DNA of 23,886 nucleotides from a virus: IMG/VR virus record IMGVR_UViG_3300010412_000081, positions 1-23,886 of that record, one strand, 5' to 3'. The position numbers and the translations under genes are program-made. How positions within the stretch are numbered: the first letter of the stretch is position 1; each line of letters starts with the position of its first letter. Below the pieces are notes generated by a model. It was not told the origin of the DNA. It saw only the letters and a program-made list of their open reading frames with translations, and searched no databases. Positions 3,803 to 22,991 of the stretch are shown here, in pieces.

Positions 3803-6214
3803 TTAATCGTACAATGTCAAGGACTTTTCCTTGGTATTGCAGATTTTTTTCATGAACCGGCTCAATAGGATACGGTTCTCGCGTTTCTTTCCAGCAAACT
3901 TGATAAACTGCTTTGCAATCCCCGCGTGTGTTTTTGCCTTTGAGATATCCAAAGTTGTATCAAGTTCCTGTCCAGTATTCAGGACATAGAAATCATCGTA
4001 AGCCTGATACTGTGTCACCAGAAAGCCTTCATTATTGAACTTTTTACGCAGTTCAAGATAACGCAGGTCTTTTTTACTTTCAAGATTGGGATAAAACTTC
4101 TTAAAGCTCCAAAGTTGAACAGCTTTTTTACCCAGAAGATAAAATCCCATTAGATTGCAACCAGTCTTTTTCTTTAGCGCCTGCTGAAGAATATCAGTCA
4201 GATCGTTTGAGGAACTAACTGAAAAACTGGTCGTACCAGGAATATGAGTTTTCTCCTCATAGAAATATTCATCACCAGTTTCTTCATCAACAGCAACACT
4301 GATGATGTATTTCTTATCAATCTTATTTTTATTATCCATATATCCATAACGGTCATGCCCAGAGAGTGTAACATAGTTAGCATCACCGTCGGTCAACATG
4401 ATAGTATTGACCACTTCAATCTTATGCCGATCACGAAAATCATTGATTAGTTTCGGCATAACGCGGAGGGCTTCGTTCGTCGGAGTGCTGCCCATACCAT
4501 TGACAGGACAATACTCATAGTTAGCAAGAGTCCAAAGATACAAACAGGTATCATTGAAATCCTTCAGCGACATTTTGGAGTCAAACAACTGCACAAGGCG
4601 GAAATCTTCAAGTTTGAAGTATGTTTTTTCTTCCGCATTGGGTCGTGGGAAACAACCTTGCTTACTCCGTTCATACCCGCGAGAGGTGCGATACAAGTAG
4701 ACCTCAAAAGGAATCTGCACCCGCTTGCAGAAGTATACAAGGATCAGCAATTGCTTGATCGTATACTTGAGGTTGCTTGACATAGAACCCGACCAATCAA
4801 TCACCATAAAGAAGCCATGGTTCTTGCCTTTAGGCACACTAGCAAAACGACGGAAGATATCTTCATTATAACGATACGAATGAAGTTTATTCGTATCAAT
4901 AATGCCGCTCTTGCTAATGCTGGTACGCATAGAGATATCAGCAGCCTTTCGCATTTCAAACTCATTTACCATGAACGAAATGGTGCTGTTCTCTTTTTGC
5001 TTGAATTGGTTCAAGCCATCATTGACCAAAGACCACCATTGAGGATTGGACGCATTTCGCGCAAACACACTGTTGGGATTAGATTTGACAGCAGCAAGGT
5101 TGTCTTTATACGAAACAACCGCTTCTTTATAGTTCACCTCAGGCAGATAATAGCGCCGATATTCAACATCGGTGTTGGTCAGATTGTTTTCAAGCTTACT
5201 TTCATAAGCCTTTTCAGTTTGAGATTGAGGAATATATTCTTCAGTTTTTTCTTCCCCATTATCATCACTATCATAATGACCACCATCAAATACTTCATTT
5301 CCACCAGCACCGATGGAATCTTGATCTTTATCCTTTTCAACATCAACCGAAGGTTCATCCGGTGCATAAACAGGCTTGGAACTTTTACTATTCTTTACAT
5401 CCTCTTTTTCTTCCTCTTCGGAATCATCTTCACCATCATCATAGGTGTCACTTTCGGCTTGATCATCATCCCAGCCTAAATCTTCAGCATCATCATGATA
5501 ATCATCACCGTAACCGTCACCATCTTCCTCATTAGAGAAGTCAATGTCATCATGAACAGTTTCCTGCTTTTTCATGAAGTCATTTTTTACGATAGCAAAA
5601 ACGTCACTGGTAGCATCAACCACTTCTTCCCAAGTTTCAAGTTGGGCAATGCGATTGACAATTTTCATTTCTTCACTTGAAAACGGCACTTTGAGAACCG
5701 AACCAACCTTGAAATGAAGATTGAGCCGATCAATCAGAGAATAAGACTTTATGTCTTTGTCTTGAGTGCCGAAAAAATTACGATCAAGCAATTCTTGATA
5801 GCCAACAAAATAGTCTTTACGCGAACCAGGATAACGGCGTTTCTGCCGCTTATCGATCCGCGCGTCCTCAATAACGTTCAAAAATCCCTTGATTGCAGGG
5901 ATTGCTTTCTGTCGTGTTGCTTTATCGGTAAAATTTGTTTTTGCGATACGATCAATCGCGGGCATCCAGTCGGTGGGAGTATCAAGAGCATGACCCACCT
6001 CATGGACAATCAACATGTCATACAAATGAACAGAAATATTCTGCCAAACGGGCAGCATCAAAGTGCGATTATACACATTGAAGGATGCAGTCTTTACATT
6101 TGAGGAATGCAAAACAGTAATATTTTCCGCAGCCAAAAGCTTTGCAAGCTTTGACCGTACGGAACTGGCAATACCCGTTTTGATTGTGTCAACTGCCGTT
6201 GTGGCTTCAGACAT
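3803..6214 (-). CDS. VWA-domain protein with HExxH metallopeptidase-like domain (CobT-like)
   Basis: Large (803 aa) protein combining three parts. First, an N-terminal domain carries HEVGH at residues 71-75 and VIEDARID near 114-121; the HExxH plus downstream E-D pattern is that of zinc metallopeptidases. Second, a very acidic low-complexity linker runs from about 220 to 328, as in CobT. Third, a C-terminal von Willebrand A domain has a complete MIDAS: DWSGS (D473, S475, S477), a Thr in MGSTPT (about 577) and D609 in LTDGD. MoxR-type ATPases usually work with such VWA partners. Thus the downstream AAA+ gene, 46 bases away, is the probable motor. ATG 6214 was chosen over 6235 because AAGGA precedes it by 9 bases. 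Two promoters precede it. The client and role in infection are unknown. Confidence 0.8.
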   Translation of the reverse strand: MSEATTAVDTIKTGIASSVRSKLAKLLAAENITVLHSSNVKTASFNVYNRTLMLPVWQNISVHLYDMLIVHEVGHALDTPTDWMPAIDRIAKTNFTDKATRQKAIPAIKGFLNVIEDARIDKRQKRRYPGSRKDYFVGYQELLDRNFFGTQDKDIKSYSLIDRLNLHFKVGSVLKVPFSSEEMKIVNRIAQLETWEEVVDATSDVFAIVKNDFMKKQETVHDDIDFSNEEDGDGYGDDYHDDAEDLGWDDDQAESDTYDDGEDDSEEEEKEDVKNSKSSKPVYAPDEPSVDVEKDKDQDSIGAGGNEVFDGGHYDSDDNGEEKTEEYIPQSQTEKAYESKLENNLTNTDVEYRRYYLPEVNYKEAVVSYKDNLAAVKSNPNSVFARNASNPQWWSLVNDGLNQFKQKENSTISFMVNEFEMRKAADISMRTSISKSGIIDTNKLHSYRYNEDIFRRFASVPKGKNHGFFMVIDWSGSMSSNLKYTIKQLLILVYFCKRVQIPFEVYLYRTSRGYERSKQGCFPRPNAEEKTYFKLEDFRLVQLFDSKMSLKDFNDTCLYLWTLANYEYCPVNGMGSTPTNEALRVMPKLINDFRDRHKIEVVNTIMLTDGDANYVTLSGHDRYGYMDNKNKIDKKYIISVAVDEETGDEYFYEEKTHIPGTTSFSVSSSNDLTDILQQALKKKTGCNLMGFYLLGKKAVQLWSFKKFYPNLESKKDLRYLELRKKFNNEGFLVTQYQAYDDFYVLNTGQELDTTLDISKAKTHAGIAKQFIKFAGKKRENRILLSRFMKKICNTKEKSLTLYD

Positions 6215-6245
6215 TGTTTTGAGTCCTTTTTCCATATTTCAATAC

Positions 6246-10142: not shown

Positions 10143-11135
10143 TTACTTTCCTATGTTTCTCAATGGAGCAAGTTGTGGTAAAGGAACCAGTCCTTTATCT
10201 GCTAAATAACCATCAGGACCGATTGTCTTTTTGTTATAATAAGTATCAAGAAACTCTTTCAATCCAGGAATAGCACCAAAATGTTGATTCTTGAAGTAAA
10301 CAAACAGAGGACGCGCGCCTTCATACTTACCTGTTGAAATGTTTTCATATGTTGGTTCTATGTTATCAATAGCAACACCACGAATAACATTTGTGTTATT
10401 ATCAAGATAAGAGAATCCAAAAACACCAACAGCATTCTTGTTGTTTGTCAGTTTTTGAATGATAAGATTATCATTTTCACCCGCTTCAATATAAGCACCA
10501 TCTTCTCGCATTGATTTCCATGCCTTTTCAAAAACATCTTTTGGGAGTGCCTTCATAGCAGGAATCTTCTTTGCTCCAACTTCCATAAACAGTTCATGGA
10601 ATGAATCGCGAGTTCCAGAAGTTGGTGGTGGACCTAAAACTTCAATGGCTGTTTGTGGTAATGATGAGTCAATATCAGACCATTTCTTATATGGATTTGG
10701 AATCAACTTTCCATCTTTACCAGGAACTTCTCGGGCAAGAGCAAGAAACACCTGGTCCATAGTTAGACTAAACTTGGGTCCATTTTTTGATTGTACTAAT
10801 ACAATACCATCAATACCAATCTTCATTTCTGTAAGAGCAAGCACACCATTATCACGACATTGTTTCCATTCAGAATCCTTGATCATACGAGAAGCATCTG
10901 TAGCGTCGGGTGTACCAGAACCAACACCAGCACAGAATAACTTCATTCCCCCACCAGTGCCTGTTGATTCAACAATAGGTGCTTTGAACTTAGTTGCTTT
11001 CGCAAAATGTTCTGCTACCACTGTAGTAAAAGGGTAAACTGTAGAAGAACCTACAATTCTAATAGTATCTCTTGCCAATGCTGGAGTGGCAAGAAGTGAA
11101 AGACCAATAATCAACGCGATAGTTTGTTTTTTCAT
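10143..11135 (-). CDS. pstS: phosphate-binding protein PstS
   Basis: Periplasmic phosphate-binding protein of the Pst ABC transporter, here a phage-carried auxiliary gene that would raise phosphate uptake by the infected cell. The 330 residues open with a Sec signal peptide (MKK, hydrophobic core to LLATPALA, cleavage after ALA near residue 21). Phosphate-binding motifs follow: GSSTVYP, STGTGGGMK, DATDASR and the late SGTRD. Length is normal for the family. ATG 11135 has AGGAG 8 bases upstream. The only Pho-box-like site in the window in good promoter register is directly upstream, implying control by host PhoB. No pstA, pstB or pstC is nearby, so it must work with the host permease. Confidence 0.95.
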   Translation of the reverse strand: MKKQTIALIIGLSLLATPALARDTIRIVGSSTVYPFTTVVAEHFAKATKFKAPIVESTGTGGGMKLFCAGVGSGTPDATDASRMIKDSEWKQCRDNGVLALTEMKIGIDGIVLVQSKNGPKFSLTMDQVFLALAREVPGKDGKLIPNPYKKWSDIDSSLPQTAIEVLGPPPTSGTRDSFHELFMEVGAKKIPAMKALPKDVFEKAWKSMREDGAYIEAGENDNLIIQKLTNNKNAVGVFGFSYLDNNTNVIRGVAIDNIEPTYENISTGKYEGARPLFVYFKNQHFGAIPGLKEFLDTYYNKKTIGPDGYLADKGLVPLPQLAPLRNIGK

Positions 11136-20049: not shown

Positions 20050-20554
20050 TCTCAAAATAGTCATAACGTAAAGTAATATCCAAAAGGAACACATTATCTG
20101 CATTATCAGCCTGGTTGAATTGAATGTTTCCAAGAGATACAGGATGGCAGTTATAATATGCGATACGAATGTTTGGTAAATGAGCATTTGTGTTTGTGGT
20201 CAATATTCCATCGTGATAAGGACTGTTTTGACTATTGTAGTATTTTACATATTCAGAAAATTTTGTTGGCGCTGTCAATGCCTTGAGCCAGTTATAAGTT
20301 TCTTCATAAACTCGCATTTCTTCATCTACCAAAACAGTTATGACCAGTTCATCATATACCAGTGTATCACCATGTCTAAACATTGTCGCAAAACCTGGTG
20401 CTTCTACTGGAACTGCTCCAGTTGATACGCTGGGGAAAATAACACTCTGGCAAAAATACTTCATGAATGGCATTGTTGGAAATGAGAATGTAAACTTTGT
20501 TGGTTGCAGAAAACTTGTGTTTTCTGGTATTTGTATAATTGTGCGGTCAACCAT
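20036..20554 (-). CDS. gp19-like tail tube protein
   Basis: Predicted inner tail tube protomer of a contractile tail. The 172 residues (T4 gp19: 163) match the gp19 layout: FTFSFPTMPF with CQSVIFPSVST, then FRHGDTLVYDELVITVLVDEE parallel to T4 NVAGDRTFDDWTVTVMNDEA, a YNWLKAL helix, and the end HPVSLGNIQF plus FLLDITLRYDYFEI parallel to WPTNVGELQLDW and FEVTLALDYWE. It may be one of two gp19 paralogues, since the usual gp18-gp19 pair is not here and the gene lies beside uvsY. The start overlaps the preceding stop (TAATG); AAGGA lies 9 bases before. Late promoter upstream at 20823-20830. Confidence 0.75.
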   Translation of the reverse strand: MVDRTIIQIPENTSFLQPTKFTFSFPTMPFMKYFCQSVIFPSVSTGAVPVEAPGFATMFRHGDTLVYDELVITVLVDEEMRVYEETYNWLKALTAPTKFSEYVKYYNSQNSPYHDGILTTNTNAHLPNIRIAYYNCHPVSLGNIQFNQADNADNVFLLDITLRYDYFEIDRL

Positions 20555-20799
20555 TAATTAAAATCCTTATAAAGTTGGGTGTGTGATATATGTAGCGGCT
20601 TATCTGTTCCGCTTATGTTTATTTCCTTGATAGTTGCACCAATATTTTCATACCAGTAATTGAGGAATTTATGTATTCTTGGAATTTCAGGTATTACATC
20701 TTCCGTTTGCCACACATATGACTGTACCAAATTTGGAAAATCAAGTCTGAAATATATTATTTCCATCAATAATAACTCTTTCCGTTTGATTATTATCAT
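20554..20799 (-). CDS. hypothetical small late protein (up to 81 aa)
   Basis: Not recognised. The body reads IIYFRLDFPNLVQSYVWQTED, IPRIHKFLNYWYENIG, then IKEINISG: alternating strands and a helix without membrane segment. ATG 20799 has GAGGGAG 9 bases upstream and sits just behind an exact late promoter; a second ATG at 20766 (70 aa) has GGAAAGAG upstream and begins at the more protein-like part, so either start is possible. It is the first gene of a late operon with the tail tube gene, so it may be a tail or head completion component (context only). Confidence 0.6.
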   Translation of the reverse strand: MIIIKRKELLLMEIIYFRLDFPNLVQSYVWQTEDVIPEIPRIHKFLNYWYENIGATIKEINISGTDKPLHISHTQLYKDFN

Positions 20800-20822
20800 G
20801 TGGAACAACTCCCTCTTTTATA

Positions 20823-20835: not shown

Positions 20836-20864
20836 TTGCTTTCCAGTTGGTTTTGATGTATAAT
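20836..20864 (+). promoter_or_regulatory. sigma-70-like promoter of the plus-strand operon
   Basis: Plus strand TTGCTT (20836-20841), 17-base spacer, TATAAT (20859-20864) in a TGTATAAT context. It precedes the first plus-strand gene at 20895 by about 24 bases of leader. Confidence 0.7.
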
Positions 20865-20894
20865 GATGATGTTCATATAATATGAGGTAAAAAT

Positions 20895-21095
20895 ATGAAA
20901 AATCCATTGAGCAGGAAGTCATATATAGCATTTGATTTTTATATAATAAAAGCACAACTTGACCATTCTCTTATATATACAGAATATAAAAAGTATGTGA
21001 AATATCGGAATACATTTTCAAAACTATATCTAATAAATCATGTAATAACTGGTGAAATAACTGACCGACGTAATAAGGATCATCATGATGATTAA
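20895..21095 (+). CDS. hypothetical 66-aa protein, first gene of plus-strand operon
   Basis: Not recognised. Basic and tyrosine-rich (YIAFDFYIIKAQL, YTEYKKYVKYRN), ending in ITDRRNKDHHDD. ATG 20895 has GAGGT 6 bases upstream and a promoter directly before it. It overlaps the start of the next ORF by 8-11 bases. Opposite strand to all core genes of the window, which together with the own promoter points to an independently controlled, probably early, accessory unit. Confidence 0.6.
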   Translation: MKNPLSRKSYIAFDFYIIKAQLDHSLIYTEYKKYVKYRNTFSKLYLINHVITGEITDRRNKDHHDD

Positions 21096-21255
21096 ACATC
21101 GTCTTTGTGAAATGGTGCCAAAAATTCATTTGGTGAATGATGGACCCTATCGCATGGTGTTCATAGAAAACTGTAAAGAGATAGAAATCAAAGAAGTCAA
21201 TACCAGAGAAGAGGCTTTAGTTTTATATAACAAATGGATGTCTGGTGATGAATAA
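21085..21255 (+). CDS. hypothetical 56-aa protein, second gene of plus-strand operon
   Basis: Not recognised. Translation read by hand: starts MMIKHRLCEMVPKI, then VNDGPYRMVFIENCKEIEIK and a helix TREEALVLYNKWM, ending SGDE. This is a plausible small strand-strand-helix fold. Start is ATG 21085 or 21088; AAGGA lies 5 or 8 bases upstream. Its stop codon overlaps the ATG of the first QV-repeat gene in the sequence ATGAATAA. Confidence 0.6.
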   Translation: MMIKHRLCEMVPKIHLVNDGPYRMVFIENCKEIEIKEVNTREEALVLYNKWMSGDE

Positions 21256-21436
21256 AGTTCGGAATCAAGTTTGGTTTCAAGTTTGGTTTCAAGTTCGGGA
21301 TCAAGTTGTGGATCAAGTTTGGTATCAAGTTGAAGATCAAGTTCGGCATCAAGTTCGGCATCAAGTTCGGCATCGAGTTCAGGATCAAGTTCGGCATCGA
21401 GTTCAGGATCAACTTAGGGAAATTTATTATGAATAA
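21248..21436 (+). CDS. QV tetrapeptide-repeat protein 1
   Basis: A 62-residue protein consisting of a short MNK start, 13 consecutive four-residue repeats of the form x-x-Q-V (for example RNQV, WFQV, RDQV, EDQV, RHQV), and an end LREIYYE. Two units have RV instead of QV and the last is QDQL. The variable positions are mainly R, W, D, H, E, F and Y. The coding DNA is a 12-base tandem array with the core CAAGTT. A period of four does not fit a standard coiled coil or a simple beta strand; the fold is unknown. ATG overlaps the previous stop, and its own stop overlaps the next start, in both cases as ATGAATAA. Confidence 0.7.
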   Translation: MNKVRNQVWFQVWFQVRDQVVDQVWYQVEDQVRHQVRHQVRHRVQDQVRHRVQDQLREIYYE

Positions 21437-21602
21437 GAATGAAATTCGCGCACAAGTTATGAGTCAAGTTTGTAATCAAGTTGAAGATCAAGTTCGGGAT
21501 CAAGTTCGGGATCAAGTTTGGGGTCAAGTTTGGGGTCAAGTTTTGGGTCAAGTTCGGAATCAAGTTTTAGAGCAAGTTCAGTATCAAGTTTGGTATCAAA
21601 TT
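21256..21602 (+). repeat. 12-base coding tandem repeats (CAAGTT core)
   Basis: Two arrays, about 21260-21416 and 21450-21602, in which CAAGTT (occasionally GAGTT or CAACTT variants) recurs every 12 bases in phase with the QV-repeat codons. Units such as GATCAAGTTCGG recur. Exact phase with codons shows a protein-level repeat rather than a DNA-level array. Confidence 0.85.
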
Positions 21603-21632
21603 AAAGAAAAAGGGGCCCGCGGGCCCCTTTAG
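21429..21632 (+). CDS. QV tetrapeptide-repeat protein 2
   Basis: Paralogue of the preceding gene: 67 residues, again starting MNK and holding exactly 13 x-x-Q-V units (EDQV, RDQV twice, WGQV twice, LGQV and others, ending WYQI). The tail KEKGARGPL is encoded by the bidirectional terminator hairpin, and its stop lies at the hairpin's edge. ATG 21429 has AGGGA 8 bases upstream. The pair probably arose by duplication of one gene, with the repeats diverging since. No function is known to me. Confidence 0.7.
   Translation: MNKNEIRAQVMSQVCNQVEDQVRDQVRDQVWGQVWGQVLGQVRNQVLEQVQYQVWYQIKEKGARGPL
21607..21632. terminator. bidirectional terminator between the QV operon and gp23
   Basis: Perfect palindrome with arms AAAGGGGCCC (21609-21618) and GGGCCCCTTT (21621-21630). 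Minus-strand reading gives the hairpin followed by TTTTTCTTT, a strong terminator for gp23; plus-strand reading ends in CCCCTTTAGTTTG, a weaker one for the repeat genes. The gp23 stop is 28 bases away. Confidence 0.85.
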
Positions 21633-21659: not shown

Positions 21660-22991
21660 TTACATAAGGTTACGAACACGGAACAGACGGTAATAAATGT
21701 TAGCGTCTGCTGCGGTATTACGTTCACCAACAGTACCGTCACCGCGTGTGGTGGCGAATGGGTTGGCAACCATACCATAACGAGTCTTAAACCCGATCTT
21801 TGGTTGGAAGGTGTCTTGTCCAACTGCACGAACCATTTGTAGTGGAACGTATGGGCAATAGAACAGACCAGCGTCATAAGGAGAAGTTCCCTTATAACCA
21901 ACGGTACATAGTTCATCACCGTTTGCTGAACCACCGAAGTAAGGATCGATGTAAACCTTTACGCGACCATGCATTACACCAGCGAAGGTATTGCCTGTGT
22001 CGTCAACAGTTAAATCAACCTTAAGTGCAGGAGTATAGTCTAGAACACCGGCCATCGCAAGGGCTGACGCAACGTCAGATGATACGATGATGATGTTCCC
22101 CTTACCGCGACGGGTTGCCTTAGCAATTGCGTTGGCTTCACGTTCGATTTGGAAAACTAGACCCTTGAACTTTTCAACTGACCAACGACCGTTTGAGTCG
22201 GTGTCAAGATCAAAAGTTCCTGCTGTGGTTACACCATACTGTGCACCTGCTGTGGCAGAACGGTAAATTGTTCTAACAACTTCACGATTGATTTCCGCAA
22301 GGATTTCAGTTGAAAGAATGTTAGAAAGTTCTGTTTCAGCGTCTAGACCATGAACTGCCTTAAGGTCTTGGGCTAGTTCCATGGTGTATTCTGCCTTTAG
22401 CGCACGGCTACGAGCAGTAACAGTAACCTTATCAATGCTGAAGGCCATTTCAGCAAATGCGTTTCCTGTTGTGCCGTCACCAAGTGCTTCGGCTTGTGCT
22501 GTGGTCATGCCCTTACCAACACCGTATACATCAGAGTCGCCTGTTGCGAATACTGGGTTAGTATTAGCATAGTTGCCTGATATTGTACCAGTAAGTCCAG
22601 CAGCAGCATTCTGTGATGAAAACGCTGTGTTGGCTTCATTGAATAGGGCTTCATCACCAGCCATTGTCTTATAGCGTGACTTCATGGCGAAGATAAGACC
22701 AGTTGGACCGGTCATTGGTTGAACGCCACAAATGTCATAAGCAATAAGATTTGGTAGAGCGCGACGAACCAATGAAATTAGAATTGGATCGTAGTTATTA
22801 ACACCGCCGGCAGAAACAGAGTTTGTTGGCGCTGCTTCGTTAAGCATTTGTCTTTCTTCAACCAAGGCTCTTTCTTGGTTTTCAAGAACAAGTGCAGTAA
22901 CAGCACGACGATATGGGTCTTTAATTGGTGAAAGACCATCGTGATCAAGAATTGGTGACCACTTAGATTCAAGTTGTTCTGTAAGATACAT
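21660..22991 (-). CDS. 23: major capsid protein gp23
   Basis: Forms the hexamers of the T4-like prohead. The 443 residues contain typical gp23 stretches: YDPILISLVRRALPNLIAYDICGVQPMTGP in overlapping parts (residues about 68-97), GLIFAMKSRY, and AVTARSRALKAEYTMELAQDLKAVHG-like sequence near 190-215. The end RLFRVRNLM is typical as well. A prohead protease (gp21) site of the form L-x-E is visible as LNE/AAPT, cleaving after residue 52. Length is at the shorter, marine/aquatic end for gp23 (T4: 521). ATG 22991 follows AAGGGA by 7 bases. An exact late promoter is 41 bases upstream, in the same place as in T4, and a bidirectional terminator follows. Confidence 0.95.
   Translation of the reverse strand: MYLTEQLESKWSPILDHDGLSPIKDPYRRAVTALVLENQERALVEERQMLNEAAPTNSVSAGGVNNYDPILISLVRRALPNLIAYDICGVQPMTGPTGLIFAMKSRYKTMAGDEALFNEANTAFSSQNAAAGLTGTISGNYANTNPVFATGDSDVYGVGKGMTTAQAEALGDGTTGNAFAEMAFSIDKVTVTARSRALKAEYTMELAQDLKAVHGLDAETELSNILSTEILAEINREVVRTIYRSATAGAQYGVTTAGTFDLDTDSNGRWSVEKFKGLVFQIEREANAIAKATRRGKGNIIIVSSDVASALAMAGVLDYTPALKVDLTVDDTGNTFAGVMHGRVKVYIDPYFGGSANGDELCTVGYKGTSPYDAGLFYCPYVPLQMVRAVGQDTFQPKIGFKTRYGMVANPFATTRGDGTVGERNTAADANIYYRLFRVRNLM

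Follow-up and report, generated by a model that had tools for sequence, protein, structure and literature searches.

The two repeat proteins encoded beside the major capsid gene gp23 in the window (the whole 23.9-kb stretch analysed here, a virus record of a T4-like phage) were shown to be members of a multigene family that is specific to phages and whose small proteins consist almost entirely of x-x-Q-V units, and in phages this family was shown to be associated with an array-less DUF6745 (PF20530) gene. The family of small QV proteins is large and apparently undescribed; no papers on QV repeats or QV peptides, and none on DUF6745, were found in the literature.

As listed in Table 1, four overlapping ORFs run on the plus strand between gp23 and the Usg-like and gp19 genes. 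ORF calls, TRF and shuffles confirmed the initial annotation, which had placed tandem x-x-Q-V arrays in the last two of them. Each array contains the 13 in-register units that had been claimed, but not all of these are QV: ORF3 has 10 QV, 2 RV and 1 QL, and ORF4 has 12 QV and 1 QI. Runs of Q[VI]xx reached 13 units in the window and at most 2 units in 100 mononucleotide shuffles, which excludes chance as the cause of the array. Unit number was also compared across homologues, and since it ranges from about 9 to 19 in the family, the equality of 13 and 13 is little informative. Each of the two QV genes starts in an 8-nt overlap with the gene before it, ATGAATAA in both cases, at 21248-21255 (ORF2 stop/ORF3) and 21429-21436 (ORF3 stop/ORF4), as had been described, and the ribosome sites also agreed with the earlier reading, being good at three of the four ORFs and weak at ORF3. 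The promoter and the terminator assigned to the cluster held in part. The sigma-70-like candidate is well placed before ORF1, but such sites are no commoner in the region than in shuffles (4 found, 5.5 expected). The hairpin exists, but the 3' end of ORF4 contains it, and it has the better T-rich tail on the minus strand, the strand of gp23, so it is shared with gp23. Protein searches detected no relatives of the 66-aa ORF1 and the 56-aa ORF2, so that any role of theirs in a four-gene operon is putative, and scans against Pfam, PHROGs and PADLOC gave no significant family for the four window proteins.

Table 1 Features of the plus-strand cluster and its flanks in the window.
Feature	Coordinates	Strand	Remarks
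Usg-like protein (PF06233)	20554..20808	-	Profile match E=1e-15; flank, between cluster and gp19
Promoter candidate, sigma-70-like, TTGATG-17-TATAAT	20853..20881	+	10/12 match; 14 nt before ORF1
ORF1, 66 aa, orphan	20895..21095	+	Ribosome site GAGGT (good)
ORF2, 56 aa, orphan	21085..21255	+	Ribosome site AAGGA (good)
ORF3, 62-aa x-x-Q-V repeat protein, 13 units	21248..21436	+	MNKV start as in family; weak ribosome site
12-bp tandem array CAAGTTnnGnnT under both QV proteins	21255..21599	+	TRF, 29 copies, found independently
ORF4, 67-aa x-x-Q-V repeat protein, 13 units	21429..21632	+	Ribosome site AGGGA (good)
Intrinsic-terminator-like hairpin, bidirectional	21609..21630	.	Inside 3' end of ORF4; common to gp23
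gp23 major capsid protein (T4-like)	21660..22991	-	Flank of cluster

The nearest annotated matches were Methylophilales phage Melnitz, cyanophages and pelagiphages, with about 68-72% DNA identity. In close relatives with flank sequence, gp23 is followed either directly by gp19, as in a T4-like contig whose gp23 is 79.8% identical to that of the window (G098), or by other cargo, which in contig L002 consists of a large opposite-strand ORF and a Usg-like gene 3' of gp23. No QV array was found among 80 relatives collected via gp23, and no QV gene was seen in the gp23-gp19 gap of close relatives, so that the plus-strand cluster is most simply an insertion into this variable gap. Such an insertion fits the earlier view of a self-contained unit among late genes. 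The Usg-like gene (PF06233) was also found between gp23 and gp19, downstream of gp23, in two related T4-like phage contigs (L002 and L003). Elsewhere in the window, the minus-strand stretch 10143-11135 appears to encode a PstS-like phosphate-binding protein, judged by sequence appearance alone; PstS-like proteins are known in marine T4-like phages.

A search for four QV units, made at the DNA level with a degenerate pattern, matched many viral contigs of two kinds. Some encode a long DUF6745 protein that contains a QV array, and others encode rows of small QV proteins like the pair in the window. A second search with a stricter start pattern, run on viral contigs and GTDB genomes, gave 94 stretches in viral contigs and no genuine small QV protein in bacterial genomes (257 Gb, GTDB), where all 6 matches were low-complexity. 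The catalogue comprised 221 distinct small QV proteins from 68 phage loci, with a median of 65 aa and 12 units, on contigs that are metagenomic fragments, partly redundant and with some near-identical pairs, and not fully independent. Starts were in register in 180 of the 221 proteins, the commonest being MKSV, MKQV and MNSV. Overlap between neighbouring QV genes is the usual arrangement: it measures 4 nt in 57 pairs, 14 nt in 15 pairs and, as in the window, 8 nt in 13 pairs. A single locus had 17 small QV genes. Such clusters of overlapping paralogues in other phages give good support to the tandem gene duplication that had been proposed for the window pair. Four consecutive QV units were matched 229 times in a 369-kb contig (G111, locus L327) and 130 times in a 19-kb contig (G093, locus L294), suggesting that some phages devote much DNA to the QV family. 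Comparison of the QV proteins with annotated phages and plasmids by tblastn yielded little, the plasmid matches resembling DNA repeats; those on the Blattabacterium plasmid were not counted in the QV family, nor were Vibrio harveyi plasmid repeats by ParA with a QV-like translation (L209 ~5978-6241), which are probably partition-site DNA repeats.

The existence of this large phage-specific family, and its tie to DUF6745, had been missed by the initial annotation. PF20530 was matched above cut-off on 42 of 76 contigs with small QV genes (17/28 and 25/48), and on 0 of 44 gp23 control contigs. The remaining 34 QV contigs had no DUF6745, one of them being 102 kb long (G014), although most are fragments in which absence is not decisive. 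The DUF6745 proteins on QV contigs were mostly about 281-325 aa long; all but one (41 of 42) had no internal array, and small QV ORFs lay within 1.5 kb of 34 of the 42. The reciprocal search from an array-less DUF6745 core found QV genes nearby at 10 of 15 loci, and in the T4-like relative G098 at least 14 small QV genes surround a DUF6745 gene. In the fused form, a protein of about 400 aa, the x-x-Q-V array follows an N-terminal region and precedes the DUF6745 domain; one such protein with about 22 QV units matched PF20530 with E=8e-36. Many fused proteins sit on viral contigs, and in bacteria they were found in Nocardia farcinica. Neither the two window QV proteins nor the scanned small QV relatives matched PF20530. 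Since the array is missing from the core and is encoded beside it in several copies, the phage genes look like a split form of the fused protein, and because the same array is found within a single long DUF6745 protein elsewhere, the small QV proteins look like its detached repeat region. No PF20530 match was found anywhere in the window, so the partner is predicted to lie elsewhere.

Other DUF6745 proteins carried different repeats or none. In the complete siphovirus genome MW202476 (L401 5001-6278), a DUF6745 protein has an x-S-S-L array (W/R/G/E-S-S-L) with silent positions fully fixed, and Deinococcus versions have LxxLP leucine-rich-type repeats joined to the C-terminal part of DUF6745. 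In the cultured Microcystis phage Ma-LMM01, gp174 (L400 5476-6612) is a DUF6745 protein without repeat array. Bacterial DUF6745 genes were also seen beside the STM4011-STM4015 cluster in Streptomyces and Deinococcus (L402, L403, L405, L407, L409), which encodes two radical SAM proteins, a hydrolase, STM4014 and STM4015. This radical-SAM link was not used as a clue to the QV role, because the DUF6745 proteins there have no QV array.

We compared the units at the DNA level. The QV codons are mostly uniform inside one genome and differ between phages, with CAAGTT in the window and CAAGTC, CAGGTC, CAAGTG, CAGGTT or CAGGTA in others. Such synonymous differences indicate constraint at the protein level; the peptide is conserved across lineages, and the DNA unit is homogenised within each. 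In the variable codons, bases 1 and 2 vary and the third base hardly does, which is opposite to the usual pattern of conservation. Within the window, positions 1-6 of the 12-bp unit were invariant in 22 QV units, position 9 was G in 18 of 22, and position 12 was T in 21 of 22. A minimum-spanning count over unit types, which presumes unit trees without homoplasy, gave 742 nonsynonymous and 36 synonymous one-step changes, compared with 163 synonymous changes expected. Pairwise pN exceeded pS at x1/x2 in nearly all arrays, the exceptions being L093 and the fused L131; in L166, for example, pN was 0.527 and pS 0.079. The usual residues are W, R, S, Y, E, L and G at x1 and D, N, S, G and A at x2, residues that are common at binding surfaces. 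These patterns are best explained by recent amplification of units together with selection favouring changes at both x1 and x2, while constraint on the DNA unit could be an alternative cause of the fixed third positions.

Structure prediction with AlphaFold2 gave one helix for ORF4, spanning residues 3-63 with a mean pLDDT of 89, from an input sequence that is repetitive. In the model of a fused DUF6745 protein the flanks mostly reached pLDDT 80-95, and the array was a low-confidence helix (pLDDT 30-50). A fold search of the DUF6745 model against solved structures in the PDB gave no match, and its significant matches in a viral structure library were one DUF6745 protein and uncharacterised phage proteins. 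The QV proteins have a median net charge of 0, and unit-lag autocorrelation showed no solenoid-like period and no strong dependence of residue identity on lag.

From these sequence features, and by analogy with Tweety gp54, we tentatively propose that the QV proteins are the diversifying recognition module of a counter-host system. Each QV protein would be a helical rod that uses its x1 (W, R, S, Y, E, G) and x2 (D, N, S, G, A) residues as a recognition face. We infer that the rod binds the DUF6745 core in trans, where the fused protein has its internal array. With several QV variants kept by the phage and renewed by unit and gene duplication, the complex could be redirected as host or prophage factors change, much as Tweety gp54 is retuned by repeat number. 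Defence proteins would be the most likely targets; this target and the counter-defence role we likewise infer. The window would hold a dispersed part of such a QV set, and its DUF6745 partner would lie in the unsequenced rest of the genome. A recognition kit against host or prophage factors is favoured because of the Tweety gp54 precedent and the exchangeable repeats in DUF6745 proteins; finding x-S-S-L or LxxLP in place of QV is expected if the repeat is an exchangeable recognition part. The anti-defence function guessed at earlier gains this one solid precedent, but no PADLOC model matches the window proteins. A fuller version is conceivable, though we hold it with more reserve: a constant DUF6745 core would form a two-part adaptive recognition system with a genomic bank of small QV rods, numbering up to a dozen or more, which would plug into the core in trans and be renewed by unit shuffling to meet changing host factors. 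As far as we found, no such design has been described in the literature.

Other roles were weighed against this recognition module. Free arrays occur in phages only, and bacteria such as Nocardia farcinica have the fused protein, so the host protein might be a recognition or immunity factor that is jammed or titrated by free phage helices and array-less cores acting as decoys or mimics, with multiple QV variants covering host alleles. We consider this unlikely, because many fused proteins are themselves on viral contigs and no tie of DUF6745 to defence was found in PADLOC beyond array-driven chance matches. A structural or assembly role, in which QV helices would be rods or oligomers in the virion or in capsid assembly, agrees with the long predicted helix and would account for the position of the window pair abutting gp23 and of the G014 QV cluster about 5 kb from gp23. 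However, QV clusters are mostly remote from structural genes (about 75-90 kb from gp23 in G098 and G004), close relatives have no QV gene between gp23 and gp19, and widely varying gene number and hypervariable x1/x2 are unlike structural proteins, which makes this role less likely still.

A unit that is constant but for two hypervariable residues, and nearly identical in DNA from copy to copy, would also be expected of a sequence-specific nucleic-acid reader that takes one unit per base or step and uses the two residues as a code in the TALE/PPR manner. Four-residue units in a single predicted helix make no groove-following solenoid, however, and the zero median net charge and the residue identities that are not strongly lag-dependent also speak against a reader, so we regard it as very improbable. 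We give least credence to a DNA-level element, in which the 12-bp repeats would be recombination sites or iterons whose open frames are incidental. The near-identity of units within a genome, the fact that 12-bp repeats are open in all frames, and the similar translation of iteron-like plasmid repeats would suit such an element, but phages differ synonymously in the codons that preserve QV, starts are in register with conserved MKSV, MKQV or MNSV, gene junctions overlap, and conserved DUF6745 proteins of 400 aa include this same frame.

A common and apparently undescribed phage family with a strong diversifying signature offers a handle on DUF6745, a domain of unknown function, and it bears on how phages might diversify their recognition with neither a reverse transcriptase nor a CRISPR-like memory. 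The existence of fused and split forms makes a direct binding test possible, and Tweety gp54 provides a ready design for a counter-defence assay.

Several known systems share part of this pattern. TAL effector repeats likewise have near-identical DNA units with two hypervariable residues, but these are 34-residue helical hairpins with no sequence relation to the four-residue QV units of one predicted helix. In plasmid and phage iterons the DNA is kept irrespective of frame, whereas the QV codons change synonymously and 180 of 221 starts are in register. The published precedent is gp54 of mycobacteriophage Tweety (Che8 gp57, PMC gp51), reported to be a tunable counter-defence protein against Phrann gp29/gp30 whose escape mutants alter repeat number (PMC9262239). 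It consists of AAxx tetrapeptide units in which positions 1-6, 9 and 12 are invariant, which its authors read as selection for variation (PMC2884959); our recomputation found the same positions all invariant and positions 7, 8, 10 and 11 variable. Tweety gp54 and the QV proteins thus share a tandem tetrapeptide with two constant and two variable residues, the 12-bp unit signature, an x1 that includes W, G and Q, and a repeat number that changes readily. They differ in the constant pair, AA instead of QV, and in organisation, since gp54 is a single gene with its own N- and C-terminal domains and the QV proteins come as rows of small stand-alone genes. Tweety gp54 matched phrog_3416 (E=1e-142), which no window protein matched, and its flanking domains are not DUF6745, so the likeness is one of working mode and not of membership, and function is transferred from gp54, which has neither DUF6745 nor QV, by analogy. 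The same paper compares Tweety gp54 with the VR2 region of Bordetella phage BMP-1 bbp36 (PMC2884959), known here by that description, which is also a number-variable tandem repeat in a phage gene but with a 24-bp element of other sequence. The fused DUF6745 protein contains the same x-x-Q-V array, internal to a protein of about 400 aa, while the window proteins are array only.
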